Shown here: positions 1,681 through 13,118 of the stretch, one piece after another
Numbering within the stretch: the stretch's first letter is position 1
How the letters are laid out: each line of letters opens with the position of its first letter
Translations under genes and position numbers: made by a program
Virus record (IMG/VR): IMGVR_UViG_3300012920_000007
Coordinates: 1 to 34,594 of that record
DNA length: 34,594 nt
Direction: 5' to 3' (one strand)
DNA from: a virus
Notes under the pieces: generated by a model
What the model was told of the DNA's origin: nothing
Seen by the model: only the letters and a program-made list of their open reading frames with translations
Database searches by the model: none

Positions 1681-1830
1681 TTAAAAATTTAGTTTAATAA
1701 TTGCGTTAATGGTAGGGATTAAAAAGATAAATACAAAAGCTATGCACATCACTACATTAGTTCCACTTGGCTCTACTTCTGTTTGTCTTTTTACCTTGTC
1801 TAATAAATTGGGGTTTGTGTGTAATTTCAT
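1681..1830 (-). CDS. Small single-pass membrane protein
   Basis: A 49-residue reading frame starting MKLHTNPNLLDKVKRQ. The N-terminal half is polar and basic; residues about 25-44 (TNVVMCIAFVFIFLIPTINA) form one clear membrane segment. It ends 4 bases before the next gene and is the first gene after the 390-base intergenic region, with a Bacteroidetes-type promoter about 30 bases upstream. The function is unknown; positive charge before the helix suggests an N-in orientation. Confidence 0.6.
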   Translation of the reverse strand: MKLHTNPNLLDKVKRQTEVEPSGTNVVMCIAFVFIFLIPTINAIIKLNF

Positions 1831-1857
1831 AATATATAATTTGATTAAAAACTTTAG

Positions 1858-1888
1858 CAAATATATAAAAAAATTATATAAAAACTAA
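1858..1888 (-). promoter_or_regulatory. Candidate Bacteroidetes-type promoter
   Basis: On the minus strand TTAG (1888-1885) is followed after 19 bases by TATATTTG (1865-1858), which matches the TAnnTTTG -7 box. The -33 box has one mismatch to TTTG. It lies about 28 bases upstream of the start at 1830 and would drive the final small-gene operon. Confidence 0.5.
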
Positions 1889-1949
1889 AAAAGTTTAAGC
1901 CCTTAACAAATCTTTTTTAATATCCTAATAAAAATTAAAAAATTTAATA

Positions 1950-1984
1950 CAAACATAAATAAATGACACATTGACAGATGCAAA
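1950..1984 (-). promoter_or_regulatory. Second candidate promoter in the intergenic region
   Basis: On the minus strand TTTG (1984-1981) is followed by 23 bases and TATGTTTG (1957-1950), a perfect TAnnTTTG box. The spacing is at the long end of what is known for flavobacteria, so this is weaker than the promoters near 2680, 4790 and 8400. Confidence 0.35.
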
Positions 1985-2032
1985 AAAATCTAGGAAAACA
2001 CACCCACCATATATACTATAGCAGATGCCCAA

Positions 2033-2103
2033 CAGTTACTTAGCAGTTTCTTCAGCAGTTACTTGGCAGTTTCTTGACAGTTTCTTGAGTGTCGCAGTTT
2101 CTT
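2033..2103. repeat. Iteron-like array, six CAGTTWCTT repeats
   Basis: Copies of CAGTT(A/T)CTT start at 2033, 2044, 2056, 2067, 2078 and 2095. Spacing is 11, 12, 11, 11 and 17 bases, so the sites fall on one face of the helix. Variation is limited to one A/T position. Such helically phased direct repeats typically bind an initiator or regulator in a cooperative array. The array is flanked by an AT-rich segment on one side and a hairpin on the other. Confidence 0.75.
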
Positions 2104-2128
2104 GCAAAAAAAATTTGGCACAAAAAAA

Positions 2129-2163
2129 AGTAGGTGAGGAAATTACACATAAACCCACCTACT
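2129..2163. promoter_or_regulatory. Hairpin next to the iterons
   Basis: A perfect 8-bp inverted repeat, AGTAGGTG (2129-2136) and CACCTACT (2156-2163), with a 19-base loop. It lies between the end of the 110-residue gene and the iteron array. On the minus strand eight T follow the stem (2128-2122 region is an A-run on the plus strand), so it could be a terminator for the upstream gene, or part of the candidate origin. Confidence 0.55.
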
Positions 2164-2220
2164 CTCCTGAACTCTAGATAAATCTAAAGTCACTAAAAAA
2201 CAAACACTTTAATCAATAAA

Positions 2221-2553
2221 CTAAAAACTTTCTAAACAATAATTACATCTTCTGATGTCTTCATCAAATGATGCACCACAACAAGACGATTCTTTTTCGT
2301 CTGCATTTGTAAGATAATCTTCAAGCTCATAGTTCTCATAGCTATCCCAATCTAAATCGTTGTGTGTATAGAATATGCCGTGATATGTAAAAGAAATATC
2401 TAAATCGTTGTCACCTGTTCTAATATCTATCTCATCAAAGCCCATAGACTCTAAGTAGTTTTCTACTGATGAATCGCTTGGTCTGATGTCAATAGTATTG
2501 TTTTCTCTCCAATCGCTATCGCAATATCCTATGTCACTTCCTGCTCTACACAT
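2221..2553 (-). CDS. Acidic protein with C-terminal zinc-ribbon motif
   Basis: A 110-residue, strongly acidic protein of unknown function. The C-terminus has C91-C92 and C103-x-x-C106 (RRCNYCLESF at the very end), a possible zinc knuckle. A similar cysteine-rich tail occurs at the ends of the 363-residue protein and the peptidase nearby. It is transcribed alone from a good promoter at 2705-2674, through an unusual G-rich leader of about 110 bases, and is followed by a hairpin. Confidence 0.65.
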   Translation of the reverse strand: MCRAGSDIGYCDSDWRENNTIDIRPSDSSVENYLESMGFDEIDIRTGDNDLDISFTYHGIFYTHNDLDWDSYENYELEDYLTNADEKESSCCGASFDEDIRRCNYCLESF

Positions 2554-2705: not shown

Positions 2706-2903
2706 TTATTTTACATATGTTTTCTTTCTTAGTATCATATTTATAATGGGCTGAGACACATTATACTTTCTAGCAAGTTGGTTTTGAGAGATGCCCCCCT
2801 CGTCATATTCACATCTTATTTCTTCTGCCTCTTGCAAAGTAAACTTACGCTTTGCAAAGCCACCACCCCTGCTATCTTTTCTTTCAAATGGATTAACACT
2901 CAT
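2706..2903 (-). CDS. Small helix-turn-helix protein
   Basis: A 65-residue basic protein. Residues about 21-63 look like a helix-turn-helix: FTLQEAEEIRCEYDEGG, then ISQNQLARKYNVSQPIINM, the typical pair of helices with a V-S-x-P turn. The glycine-rich N-terminus SRGGGFAKRK is probably flexible. It overlaps the upstream DUF3310 gene by 11 bases. Likely a DNA-binding regulator of early genes; it could also come from the DNA-binding end of a homing endonuclease, as such modules share this motif. No nuclease domain is present. Confidence 0.7.
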   Translation of the reverse strand: MSVNPFERKDSRGGGFAKRKFTLQEAEEIRCEYDEGGISQNQLARKYNVSQPIINMILRKKTYVK

Positions 2904-4834: not shown

Positions 4835-5068
4835 TTAAAATAATTGTGCCTGTTGATATTGTCTTTGCAATGTGTATCTAGCATATTTACAGGGCTCACC
4901 AAATCTATTTGTGCTTTTTTCTGTGTCAGACTTTATGTTATAGCCCTCGTCTCTAAGATTAAATATGATTGCACTCAATCTCATTATTGCATAATCTCTG
5001 AAGGCATCTAATGGTGTTATAGTACCATAGTGCTCAAGGTGTCTTAATACTTTATCTTTTTGTGTCAT
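4835..5068 (-). CDS. Winged helix-turn-helix protein (HTH_39-like)
   Basis: A 77-residue protein matching small phage winged-helix proteins: MTQKDKVLRHLEHYGTITPL, DAFRDYAIMRLSAIIFNLRD (recognition helix), then EGYNIKSD and the wing NRFGEPCKYARYTL. The family is common in phage replication regions. It probably binds DNA; whether it regulates or takes part in replication is unknown. It overlaps the upstream gene by 17 bases and ends just before the peptidase promoter. Confidence 0.85.
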   Translation of the reverse strand: MTQKDKVLRHLEHYGTITPLDAFRDYAIMRLSAIIFNLRDEGYNIKSDTEKSTNRFGEPCKYARYTLQRQYQQAQLF

Positions 5069-5459
5069 CTATTCTTTTTGCTTTAGTTATCGTAGCATCA
5101 ATATACTTTTGATTTCTTTGATGCTTTTGATAGTCGGTTATTAACTTTTGTTGTCTATTTAATTGTGCTTTGGACTTGTGTTCCTTTAGCCATATGTTCC
5201 AATTACGAACATTGATAAAGCCACCGTGCTCAGAGTTTCTTATACCCTGTTCAAATGCAAATGAAACTTCATCCATATCCATAGAGCCATAGTATCTTGA
5301 TAAGTCATCTACTAAGAACTTAGCCATCATTACAACTTGCTGTGTATCAGGTCTTTGCCCTAACATCATATAACACTTGCTAAGTAAGTCAACGCAATCA
5401 ACATTTAACTGCTCTATATCATTGCTAAATCTATACCATACTTGTCTAGTCTTATCCAT
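5052..5459 (-). CDS. Hypothetical replication-region protein
   Basis: A 135-residue protein with a helical body (residues about 15-85) and a charged C-terminal helix rich in Lys and Gln. The stretch MDMDEVSFAFEQGIRNSEHG followed by NVRNWNIWLKEH resembles proteins I associate with Bacteroidetes phages next to replication initiators, where a helicase-loader role is possible. It overlaps the replisome-organizer-like gene by 8 bases, so the two are probably translated together. I cannot name the family with confidence. Confidence 0.65.
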   Translation of the reverse strand: MDKTRQVWYRFSNDIEQLNVDCVDLLSKCYMMLGQRPDTQQVVMMAKFLVDDLSRYYGSMDMDEVSFAFEQGIRNSEHGGFINVRNWNIWLKEHKSKAQLNRQQKLITDYQKHQRNQKYIDATITKAKRIDDTKR

Positions 5460-6111
5460 TGTTTATCATTTGTCTTGCCTCTTGCCAAGTATTTAGAGAC
5501 TGTTCTACTTTGCTTTTTGTTTCCTCTTTGGTATTTTTTTCCCAAGTTCTAACTGCAGCCCTCCAATCTTTCATAGGATTCTTTCCTACCTTCCAACCAT
5601 TACTTTCATAATAGTTAAAGAACTTTTGAATATCAACCTTATTGTTTCTTTCAATACAGTAATGTTCTAAGTCATTTAAAGTTGGCTTAACAAATCTTTT
5701 AACCTTAGCTTTATCTTTAACTATAACCTTATCTTTATCTTGTACGGTATTAGGTAGGGTTTGTAAACCCTTCACATACCCTTCAAGGCTATATCTTTCC
5801 AATAACTGTATTACTGATTTGTGAACATTAGAGTTTGGATTTAGTTCGCCATATTGAAAGTCAATGAAGTCAGGTATAAACCACTTGTCGCCATTGTCAA
5901 ACGGTATAACTTTTTCTTCAAACGATGATGGTAAGCTGTCGTGTGACAAGTCAAAGCCTACCCTGATGGAAGCTACTTCTAAATCTACTTCCCATATTCC
6001 TGCGTGGTTGCAGTCATCAAGTATATAAAACCACAGAAGTTTGTGTTGTGGTGATAGGTCACGGACAAATCTTTTCTTCCACTTGTCCGTATCGGTCATT
6101 CTTTTTGCCAT
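5452..6111 (-). CDS. Replisome organizer / replication initiation-like protein
   Basis: A 219-residue protein. Its N-terminal 100 residues (KWKKRFVRDLSPQHKLLWFY, AGIWEVDLEVASIRVG) look like the winged-helix N-terminal domain of phage replisome organizers. A charged linker (DKDKVIVKDKAKVK) leads to a C-terminal domain with FFNYYESNGWKVGKNPMKDW and RAAVRTWEKN, a motif typical of DnaD/DnaT-like loading proteins and of Bacteroidetes replication proteins. It is the best candidate for the protein that brings the host helicase to the phage origin. A promoter-like box and the shared leader element lie just upstream. Confidence 0.75.
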   Translation of the reverse strand: MAKRMTDTDKWKKRFVRDLSPQHKLLWFYILDDCNHAGIWEVDLEVASIRVGFDLSHDSLPSSFEEKVIPFDNGDKWFIPDFIDFQYGELNPNSNVHKSVIQLLERYSLEGYVKGLQTLPNTVQDKDKVIVKDKAKVKRFVKPTLNDLEHYCIERNNKVDIQKFFNYYESNGWKVGKNPMKDWRAAVRTWEKNTKEETKSKVEQSLNTWQEARQMINNG

Positions 6112-6157: not shown

Positions 6158-6571
6158 TTACAATCCTACATCTACCATCTCTTTTTCTATCTTATCTAAT
6201 CTTGCATTTATATCTGCTCTTGCTTTACTCAATCTTTGAAACTCAACTTCCCAACGCTTTAGCATAACATCTTGGTCTCCTAAGAACATAGACTTAACCT
6301 TTTCATAGTCATCAATATAGTCTTGATAAAACTTAGGATATTCATATGCGTTGTTGTGTTGCTTTTGATAATGATAGAAACTACTTCTATCTTTATTAAG
6401 ATACTGATTCATCTTGCCAATAGGTATCTGTAGTTCTTTCATCAATATATTTGAGTAAATCACTCTAGCTCTAACAAACTCTTGTTCTCTACAACTTTTA
6501 TCTAAAGCACTTCTAGGTATATTAAGTTGTATAGATATAATTTGTTTTAGCTTTGCTAATTCATTATCCAT
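6158..6571 (-). CDS. DnaA domain IV-like DNA-binding protein
   Basis: A 137-residue protein. Residues about 17-73 (IPRSALDKSCREQEFVRARV, IYSNILMKELQIPIGKMNQY, LNKDRSSFYHYQKQH) follow the DnaA C-terminal domain: a basic loop, a helix-turn-helix, and a D-R-S-S-F-Y-H version of the DnaA D-H-[ST]-T-V signature. The AAA+ domain is absent. The remaining 60 residues form a charged helical tail. Proteins of this kind bind DnaA-box-like sites. Near a replisome-organizer-like gene it may recognise the phage origin, perhaps the iteron array at 2033-2103. Confidence 0.72.
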   Translation of the reverse strand: MDNELAKLKQIISIQLNIPRSALDKSCREQEFVRARVIYSNILMKELQIPIGKMNQYLNKDRSSFYHYQKQHNNAYEYPKFYQDYIDDYEKVKSMFLGDQDVMLKRWEVEFQRLSKARADINARLDKIEKEMVDVGL

Positions 6572-6757: not shown

Positions 6758-7063
6758 TTAAAAGGGAAGACCCTCGTCTTCATCTGTTTGCACCTGCTTT
6801 GGTTTTGCATCTGAATCAATCTTCCAAGCCACAATGTTATTGTAGTATGTGCCTTCCCAAAGCCTACCATTTATATTGATAGAGCACTTGATAAAATCAC
6901 CAACACTTACACCATCAAGCTTATCTATATTATCCTTGTGTGCTTCTAGTTTTATTGTTTGTGGGTAATCACCACCTGTGTTTATCACAAACTCTCTTTT
7001 CTTAAAACCACTTTGAAACTTCTTTGTTTCGTATTTAGCCTCTAACTTTCCTTCTAATTCCAT
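6758..7063 (-). CDS. DUF3127 protein, single-stranded DNA-binding-like
   Basis: A 101-residue protein that matches DUF3127, a Bacteroidetes family with an OB-like fold: MELEGKLEAKYETKKFQSGF, KKREFVINTGGDYPQTIKLE, DFIKCSININGRLWEGTYYN and IVAWKI in the family order. It ends in an acidic tail with the final residues DEDEGLPF, the kind of C-terminal peptide by which bacterial SSB recruits partners. It is probably the phage single-strand-binding protein, protecting replication intermediates. It is embedded between replication and regulatory genes with 1-base spacing. Confidence 0.88.
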   Translation of the reverse strand: MELEGKLEAKYETKKFQSGFKKREFVINTGGDYPQTIKLEAHKDNIDKLDGVSVGDFIKCSININGRLWEGTYYNNIVAWKIDSDAKPKQVQTDEDEGLPF

Positions 7064-9822: not shown

Positions 9823-10302
9823 TTAAAATTGTTTATCAAAATCTATATATTCTATGGTTACATCTTCACCACTTTCTAATTCTTTTGATATATCTTGATA
9901 AATTCTTTTGTAGGCATTTGTAGATTTGCCTATAAAACCATCTTTAATTATTTGGTTATTTTCTTGAGAATCACCGAGAAGCAAACATCCTGCAGTATTT
10001 TCATCAGTATTACCACAATGTAACAAAATGTAATCAAAATTTGGAACATCCATAACTTGCAACATTCCTTTATGAATATTAGAAAAACGCTTACTATATT
10101 TATTATGAAAGCCACCTTCTTTTCTATATTGTATAAAATATTTTCCTTTTGGTATTCTTGTCTCACCTTTTACTTTTAAAACTCTATGTTCGTCTTCCAA
10201 TGTATAACATAAAAACCGAAGACCAAAGCTTTCGGTTTTTTCAAATAATATACCATTAGTGCAATCTGACTCGCTACTAATTCTATATACAACTAAGTCC
10301 AT
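9823..10302 (-). CDS. DUF5675 family protein, probable lysis enzyme
   Basis: A 159-residue protein with the DUF5675 pattern: TLEDEHRVLKVKGETRIPKG early, GMLQVMDVPNFDYILLHCGN in the middle, then the motif HCGNTDENTAGCLLLG with H95 and C106. The paired His and Cys in an H-x-G...G-C setting recall the active site of YkuD-type L,D-transpeptidases. The gene lies between membrane genes and the holin, where an endolysin is expected, and no other cell-wall enzyme is visible in the window. It has no signal peptide, so it would rely on the holin. Confidence 0.78.
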   Translation of the reverse strand: MDLVVYRISSESDCTNGILFEKTESFGLRFLCYTLEDEHRVLKVKGETRIPKGKYFIQYRKEGGFHNKYSKRFSNIHKGMLQVMDVPNFDYILLHCGNTDENTAGCLLLGDSQENNQIIKDGFIGKSTNAYKRIYQDISKELESGEDVTIEYIDFDKQF

Positions 10303-12195: not shown

Positions 12196-13118
12196 TATTT
12201 ATCTTTTTTTATTAGTTTTATTTCTGTTATTAAATCTTCTTTGAGTATGTTCAAAAACTTAAGAAGCTCTTTCTCATCTACCTCATTTTTGTAGCCACCA
12301 CCACCGTGTCTTTTTCCACACATCCAAGAGCCATCAGGCATTTGGTGCTCATATCCATCAGGGCAATTTGGGTTTCTTCTTGCATTATCAGTTTCTTTCA
12401 TAGCCTTTTTCATTGGATGCTTTTCAGGAAGCAAATCAGTATCGTGTGTACCACCTTGAAATCTACCTTTACGCATCACAAAAAGGAAAGAATTTGTACG
12501 AGCATACGCCCACTGCTCCTCAGATTTTACATTGGGTCTAACCGATTGTCTGTTCGTTCTGTAAGCACCGACACCCCTGTCAAACACTTTTTCTAACTTC
12601 TTATAAGTTACTCTTGGATTCCAATCAACTTTTAAGTCTTTTACATCTTCATTATGCTTTTCAACTTTTGCTTCAAGTCCTTTCTTTACTGTTGGGCTAA
12701 CATTTTTCATATTATCTTTTCTTCCTTCTAGTTTTTTAGTCAACTCTAGTATTACATCTTTCATTCCCTGTACTCCTAAGTTTCCAATCACACCCCACTT
12801 TATTTGTGCAACCACACCTGCTACATTTGATAGGTTTGGCTCTGCATCACCCTTGAACTTTTGACCATCTCTAAAATGTCTTTTAGCCCAACTCTCTCTT
12901 TCTTTTATCCAAGCTCTTATAGATTCAGTATCTTCACCCTTTCTTGCCCTTCCCCAAAGCATAAAAGCATCATTACCACGAATGTTACCACCTGCCTTCC
13001 ATATCTTTGGCTGCTGCTCTTTTAAGTTCTTTGCAAACTCATAAGGAAACTGTTTTTCCTCACTATTACGCAAAGTAATCTTTTTGTCATCACCTTTTTT
13101 TGGAAAGTTTGTAGCCAT
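12195..13118 (-). CDS. Phage structural or assembly protein (DUF5824-like)
   Basis: A 307-residue, Lys/Arg-rich protein. The N-terminal part (IWKAGGNIRGNDAFMLWGRA, REPSWAKRHF-like segment at about 70-80) is followed by residues about 180-235 with GVGAYRTNRQSVRPNVKSEE and QWAYARTNSFLFVMRKGRF, which resemble the DUF5824 domain of phage proteins. A third part, about 240-275, has NCPDGYEHQMPDGSWMCGKR with two cysteines. It is one-base coupled to the connector and to the next gene. It may be a virion protein or an assembly factor; DUF5824 has no defined function that I know. Confidence 0.6.
   Translation of the reverse strand: MATNFPKKGDDKKITLRNSEEKQFPYEFAKNLKEQQPKIWKAGGNIRGNDAFMLWGRARKGEDTESIRAWIKERESWAKRHFRDGQKFKGDAEPNLSNVAGVVAQIKWGVIGNLGVQGMKDVILELTKKLEGRKDNMKNVSPTVKKGLEAKVEKHNEDVKDLKVDWNPRVTYKKLEKVFDRGVGAYRTNRQSVRPNVKSEEQWAYARTNSFLFVMRKGRFQGGTHDTDLLPEKHPMKKAMKETDNARRNPNCPDGYEHQMPDGSWMCGKRHGGGGYKNEVDEKELLKFLNILKEDLITEIKLIKKDK

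Follow-up and report, generated by a model that had tools for sequence, protein, structure and literature searches.

A selected intergenic array of direct repeats as a candidate replication origin in a large group of uncultured phages

An intergenic array of six short direct repeats in a complete phage genome, whose full stretch of 34,594 nucleotides is here termed the window, has a layout that suggests an origin of replication of an established general class, resembling oriR of phage SPP1. We place the probability that these repeats are the iterons of such an origin at about 0.5; on this reading a phage protein would bind them and replication would start at this site. The repeats themselves, the selection acting on them, their fixed place and direction, a terminator-like hairpin, a weak DNA duplex and the types of replication genes present are all directly established in the window and its relatives. 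An iteron origin fits this ensemble because it accommodates selected repeats, the weakest duplex, insulation from transcription, a phage initiator and the lack of a phage polymerase. The coordinates of the features discussed below are collected in Table 1.

The first and last 109 bases of the window are identical, and the genome, with a unique length of 34,485 bp, is therefore a circle or a terminally redundant molecule. Nearly all of its clear genes lie on the minus strand, and they include those for terminase, portal, head protease, tape measure, holin, a single-strand DNA binding protein (SSB), a DnaD-like initiator and many small early proteins. Among the window proteins scanned there was no DNA polymerase, helicase, integrase or partition protein, and as neither a phage polymerase nor a phage helicase was found, the host replisome is probably recruited. 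Comparison of the array region with named phages by blastn gave no match, tblastn with the initiator, terminase, HTH and partner proteins recovered no named phage having such a gene set, and the motif array is absent from Pan5, P2559Y and three bacterial loci; an Rfam scan of 1400-2700 gave no match, and a literature search for the motif letters returned nothing relevant. The relatives of the window are uncultured, being viral contigs from metagenomes. The initiator has weak relatives in Bacteroidetes genomes, and these, together with boxes matching TAnnTTTG, the consensus of the Bacteroidetes-type -7 promoter box, suggest a Bacteroidetes host.

Table 1. Features of the window in and around the repeat array, and candidate binding and replication genes
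Feature	Coordinates	Strand	Remarks
Iteron 1, CAGTTACTT	2033..2041	+	gene sense strand is minus, there AAGTAACTG
Iteron 2, CAGTTTCTT	2044..2052	+	
Iteron 3, CAGTTACTT	2056..2064	+	
Iteron 4, CAGTTTCTT	2067..2075	+	
Iteron 5, CAGTTTCTT	2078..2086	+	
Iteron 6, CAGTTTCTT	2095..2103	+	step of 17 bp from iteron 5 departs from the helical phase
Degenerate end unit, CAGATGCCC	2022..2030	+	11 bp before iteron 1
Intrinsic-terminator-like hairpin GTAGGTG...CACCTAC, then T8	2122..2163	-	
Smaller hairpin CTTTAGA-TTTA-TCTAGAG	2172..2189	-	just upstream of terminator; from sequence and fold
AT-rich block, candidate DNA unwinding element	1855..1960	.	89% invariant in five relatives
Promoter-like box TATATTTG, TAnnTTTG match	1858..1865	-	upstream of next gene
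Second TAnnTTTG match TATGTTTG	1950..1957	-	
Probable small membrane-protein ORF	1681..1830	-	downstream of promoters, conserved in group A
Small acidic/Cys-containing conserved protein gene	2221..2553	-	directly before terminator
65-aa HTH protein, Arg/Gly-rich N-terminal arm	2706..2903	-	candidate binder
Partner gene, 135 aa, conserved	5052..5459	-	adjoins initiator
Replication initiator candidate, DnaD/replisome-organiser-like	5452..6111	-	homology only
Stand-alone DnaA domain IV-like protein	6158..6571	-	window copy divergent, orthologs clear
Single-strand DNA binding protein (SSB)	6758..7063	-	

The preliminary description had reported six exact copies of CAGTTWCTT between 2033 and 2103, with start-to-start steps of 11, 12, 11, 11 and 17 bp and a single variable A/T position, and these particulars are borne out in the window genome. 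Its proposal that the array is helically phased holds for the 11- and 12-bp steps and fails for the last one; the 17-bp step recurs unchanged in group A, one of two groups of close relatives. The array does not lie in the largest internal gap of the genome, as had been stated, but in one of about 390 bp (1831-2220) that ranks second to a gap of 422 bp, located upstream of terS and spanning the ends of the record; the array gap is taken to start at 1831 because a small conserved ORF probably occupies the positions before it. By TRF the array is the top tandem repeat of the genome (score 80), and the largest cluster of any one-wildcard 9-mer per 75 bp reaches 6 copies at the array, whereas 100 dinucleotide-shuffled versions of the genome, which set the chance level, never exceeded 3. 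Outside the array a single further exact copy of CAGTTWCTT occurs, at 12389, and when one mismatch is allowed the genome-wide count is at chance level (39 observed, 33 expected), so that the signal resides in the cluster and not in the word. The word TGRAACTGC has no copy in the window. As with the degenerate end unit here, the arrays of relatives terminate in a GCAG... half unit.

A pattern scan and a scan with the initiator gathered more than 80 related contigs. The earlier claim that the array is under selection is upheld by five close relatives, in which 48 of 48 core bases are invariant (a count that excludes the variable A/T position of each copy), compared with 65% of the spacer bases; the corresponding figures are 75% for the third codon positions of the neighbouring gene and 89% for the AT block. 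Close relatives that retain the flanking genes possess the array, whose absence from them had been named in advance as evidence against the proposed interpretation. Scores of relatives have the array at the same site, in the same orientation and with the same 11-bp step, also where the genes beside it have been exchanged; it follows the HTH gene and the terminator hairpin and precedes the promoter and the terminase genes. The array and its 11-12-11 core are shared by the close groups A and B; in groups C and D the arrays contain 3 to 6 copies, every 11 bp and always in one orientation, and in every case stand after the early genes and before the accessory genes and terminase. A wider scan with the 65-aa HTH protein gave 62 loci in which 900 nt or more follow the HTH gene, and 55 of these have the array; as for the other seven, L181, L230 and L231 hold three spaced copies each, L228 has an array of variant wording, two contigs end before the array position, and the end of L177 looks like unrelated sequence. 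Across this survey the step was 11 bp in 98 instances, 12 bp in 15 and 21-22 bp in 17, in copies that are not independent of one another.

Direct repeats of 11 bp are also found in R1 parC, the ParR site (PMC9426499), a resemblance that raises the highly improbable alternative of a partition or centromere-like site, of the ParR/TubR/ParB type, in a plasmid-like phage. Against it, no ParM, TubZ, ParA, integrase or plasmid-maintenance gene was found among the genes scanned, and the repeats are not flanked by genes for a partition motor and adaptor, as a ParMRC or TubZRC centromere would be, the neighbouring genes being unlike those for partition proteins. An interpretation as integrase arm-type sites (attP) was likewise considered, and no integrase match was found among the scanned proteins.

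The wording of the repeat differs among relatives in a manner that bears on its function. On the sense strand the main wording is AAGWAACTGC; more distant relatives use a second, TGAAACTGC; and relatives that seemed to be array-less have TGAAACTGCC on the sense strand every 11-13 bp at the same spot. A third wording, TGAGACTGC, is confined to L228, where four copies of TGAGACTGCC are present, all of them changed; a scan of all viral contigs found no other instance of it. In each case the wording shifts in all copies of an array together, as expected for a set of sites that would be recognized by one binding protein. In some group D phages a further array, of two copies, lies about 1.1 kb downstream of the main array (L031 5351-5370; G015 10281-10301).

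The location of the array upstream of the terminase genes, with accessory genes alone between them, would also be compatible with a packaging or replication-switch signal, recognized by the terminase small subunit or by a bound initiator and serving as the start of packaging or a point of fork stalling, such as has been proposed for SPP1 oriR (PMC6316719). The sites are strictly one-directional along the relatives' genomes, as polar signals are; however, the distance from the array to terS differs by kilobases among relatives, and a residue-wording correlation identified no residues in the terminase proteins that track the array wording. We consider this explanation unlikely.

Along the direction of the genes, the order of elements is early gene, hairpin with T run, array, degenerate end unit, operator-like element, AT-rich stretch, TAnnTTTG promoter-like box and next gene. 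The hairpin reported beside the array proves to be terminator-like (2130-2163, with its T run on the minus strand), and this design is kept in all 34 genomes examined, with differing sequence. In one large branch a copy of the repeat is located within the terminator hairpin. This arrangement, along with the uniform direction of all copies relative to transcription, is what could be cited for a signal at the RNA level, in which the transcribed repeat GAAACUGC would be read, e.g. by a phage RNA-binding protein or a small RNA. We deem that very unlikely, as the main array should be little transcribed, given its position just after the terminator, and its near-helical 11-bp step points to DNA. An 18-nt inverted repeat (94%; 1811-1828 / 2139-2156), whose arms fall at the start of the small ORF and in the loop of the terminator hairpin, shows no compensating changes in relatives and is treated as a chance occurrence. 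C-rich tracts (C9 and others) are present at 2600-2660, between the HTH gene and the gene that directly precedes the terminator, and are seen in relatives too.

The AT-rich neighbour of the array noted earlier is likewise supported, as the 100-bp stretch of lowest stability in the whole genome falls within the AT-rich block, some 80 nt from the array. In 14 of 14 genomes, the weakest 100 bp within 350 nt past the array rank at the 99.4th percentile or higher for their genome. Low stability is by itself no proof of an unwinding element, because the promoter of the next genes shares the same AT-rich stretch. Operator-like, exchangeable elements occur between the array and the promoter in L012, L046, L067, L104, L106, L128 and L082, and are 1) TTATTAACA-N7-TGTTAATAA pairs; 2) AGTGTAC...GTACACTAA repeats of 22 bp; and 3) TTAGAATnATTCTAAAT. 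The TTATTAACA inverted pair was considered as a DnaA box, which it resembles near the arrays of some branches; since other branches have swapped it for other elements, it is probably an exchangeable operator.

The chief rival to an origin is a regulatory array at the boundary of early and late genes, which we regard as possible rather than probable. Copies of an early protein, for which the 65-aa HTH protein is the best candidate, would coat the repeats and switch the promoters at about 1858 and 1950, and with them expression from early to late/accessory genes. The placement of the array, between the terminator-like hairpin of the early operon and a conserved TAnnTTTG promoter-like box, is in keeping with this, as is the nearby HTH gene, which almost every array-bearing phage retains, its product having an RGGG arm and an HTH core that do not vary; direct repeats of 11 bp would suit a monomeric HTH protein with an arm. 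On the other hand, the distance between array and promoter varies from about 80 to 300 nt, the array is farther from the promoter than other, swapped elements of operator-like appearance (TTATTAACA pairs, AGTGTAC repeats and TTAGAATnATTCTAA), the wording of L228 has changed while the HTH recognition helix has not, and copies of the motif within genes show no nearby promoter role. The preliminary description had offered an iteron origin or a cooperative repressor array as joint options; of these the origin is in our view the likelier, and the iteron-like layout, the selection and the AT-rich neighbour to which it pointed are supported.

On the origin reading, an early phage protein, most likely the DnaD/replisome-organiser-like initiator, would bind the direct repeats side by side; the bound initiator would strain or open the AT-rich DNA about 80 nt away (~1860-1960), host helicase and replisome would be loaded at the opened DNA, and the terminator before the array would keep early transcription out. 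The features that mark iteron origins are found here as selected direct repeats in the same orientation, a low-stability AT-rich neighbour that is shared with a promoter, and a phage initiator recognized by homology. SPP1 oriR is intergenic, with direct repeats and an AT-rich DUE, and has transcription signals on either side and extra genes close by; further sites, forming a second set, are located within a coding gene, and a fork-stalling role has been proposed for oriR (PMC6316719). Our array is similar to these gp38 binding sites (oriR/oriL) in its direct repeats beside a candidate AT-rich unwinding region, its intergenic position and the transcription signals bracketing it, and the likeness to SPP1, a lytic siphovirus, extends to the second sites inside a coding gene (PMC6316719). 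It differs in the repeat sequence and in being built of 9-mers every 11 bp, in that the in-gene copies, seen in relatives only, are in small early genes and not in the initiator gene, and in that SPP1 encodes its own helicase, whereas none was seen in the window phage.

Lambda and lambdoid origins similarly combine iterons adjoining an AT-rich tract with a phage initiator and the host replisome, but the lambda iterons lie inside the O (initiator) gene (PMC7466680), whereas the present array occupies an intergenic region some 3 kb away from the initiator gene, a distance that counts against the origin reading. The linker of the initiator gene contains a short 18-bp repeat (5698-5741), at the place where lambda-type origins have their iterons, and this, the main competing site, could itself be the origin. 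Also counting against an origin at the array are the occurrence of the motif elsewhere in relatives' genomes, including coding regions, and the lack of a GC-skew switch: neither GC nor AT skew, computed over all sites and over third codon positions, showed a switch at the array or any origin signal. In iteron plasmids, same-direction repeats are bound by an initiator and their helical spacing matters (PMC4980987); the origins of RK2, P1 and R6K share with our array the several repeats in the same direction, and have iterons of 17-22 bp as opposed to a unit of 9-11 bp here.

Bacterial oriC regions contain DnaA-box 9-mers that lie 2 bp apart in arrays. The likeness in 9-mers beside an unwinding element is accompanied by a DnaA-type DNA-binding domain encoded by these phages; however, the canonical box TTWTNCACA does not occur between 1800 and 2200 and is present in the genome at the number expected by chance, the phage protein lacks the AAA+ domain, and the array wording is independent of its subfamily. 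The DnaA-like protein, which had been suggested as a binder, does belong to a real family, its orthologs matching PF08299 (Bac_DnaA_C; E 8e-19 in L015, 1.7e-19 in L030 and 0.027 in the window copy), and nothing ties it to the array in preference to the initiator or the HTH protein. In the phage group it is common to find a DnaA domain IV encoded on its own (also L015 3385-3765 and L030 1165-1545), and these proteins form two subfamilies, with the recognition helices NHATVIHH and DRSSFYHY; the array wording cuts across both.

The most constant DNA-binding candidates are the initiator and the HTH protein. The initiator has a predicted winged-helix-like N-terminal part and a DnaD-like C-terminal part, and its structural model, of modest confidence (pLDDT 65), gave no significant Foldseek match in the PDB; the adjoining 135-aa partner protein might possibly have a role in helicase loading. 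When residues were correlated with wording, no column of the initiator separated the two main wordings, and the DnaA-like family, which evolves fast, had three separating columns, all outside the recognition helix; the only others came from small or fragmentary sets. Changes of wording, or dialect, number 2 to 6 on the protein trees and pick out no single protein. L228 weighs a little against the HTH protein as the binder, because there the array wording changed and the recognition helix did not.

The second wording also extends into genes. In 13 genomes of its branch (G001-G011, G013 and G014; loci L133-L154, L171 and L172) TGAAACTGC is the most over-represented 9-mer, with 98 copies in the sense direction and none on the opposite strand, against 2.6 expected from a third-order model; part of these copies form the main array and part are tandem copies within genes. 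The latter recur every 9 bp within small early genes that belong to two or three families unrelated to one another, and read (Glu-Thr-Ala)n; examples are found in L091 (6596-7054), L110 (4114-4368), L080, L103, L128, L071, L072, L078 and others. All 77 of 77 tandem units use GAA ACT GCT, codons with background shares of 0.65, 0.36 and 0.46, a figure that is not to be read as a probability, as homology and recent duplication make the counts non-independent. That diverged genes show no synonymous drift here suggests that the DNA or RNA is constrained, or else that the expansion is very recent. Single copies of TGAAACTGC are scattered through late genes, nearly all in a Glu/Gly-Thr-Ala frame, and may reflect mere codon use. 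The in-gene and array wordings do not always agree, since the TT-worded genome G015 carries coding repeats of the TGAAACTGC type. A rather doubtful extension of these observations is that the motif represents spreading, one-directional sites for a phage protein, within genes as well, with several origins or fork-control points and a wording that tracks the binding protein; the binder would be the initiator or another phage protein, and the in-gene sites would be tolerated as Glu-Thr-Ala repeats with fixed codons.

If the array is indeed an origin, it would provide a first sequence-level handle on where DNA copying starts in a large group of uncultured phages, probably those of Bacteroidetes, and a defined repeat, an unwinding site and an initiator would become testable. 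Comparison of arrays whose copies have all changed wording together offers a test of binding-protein specificity, and the copies within genes would show a DNA signal written through protein-coding sequence.
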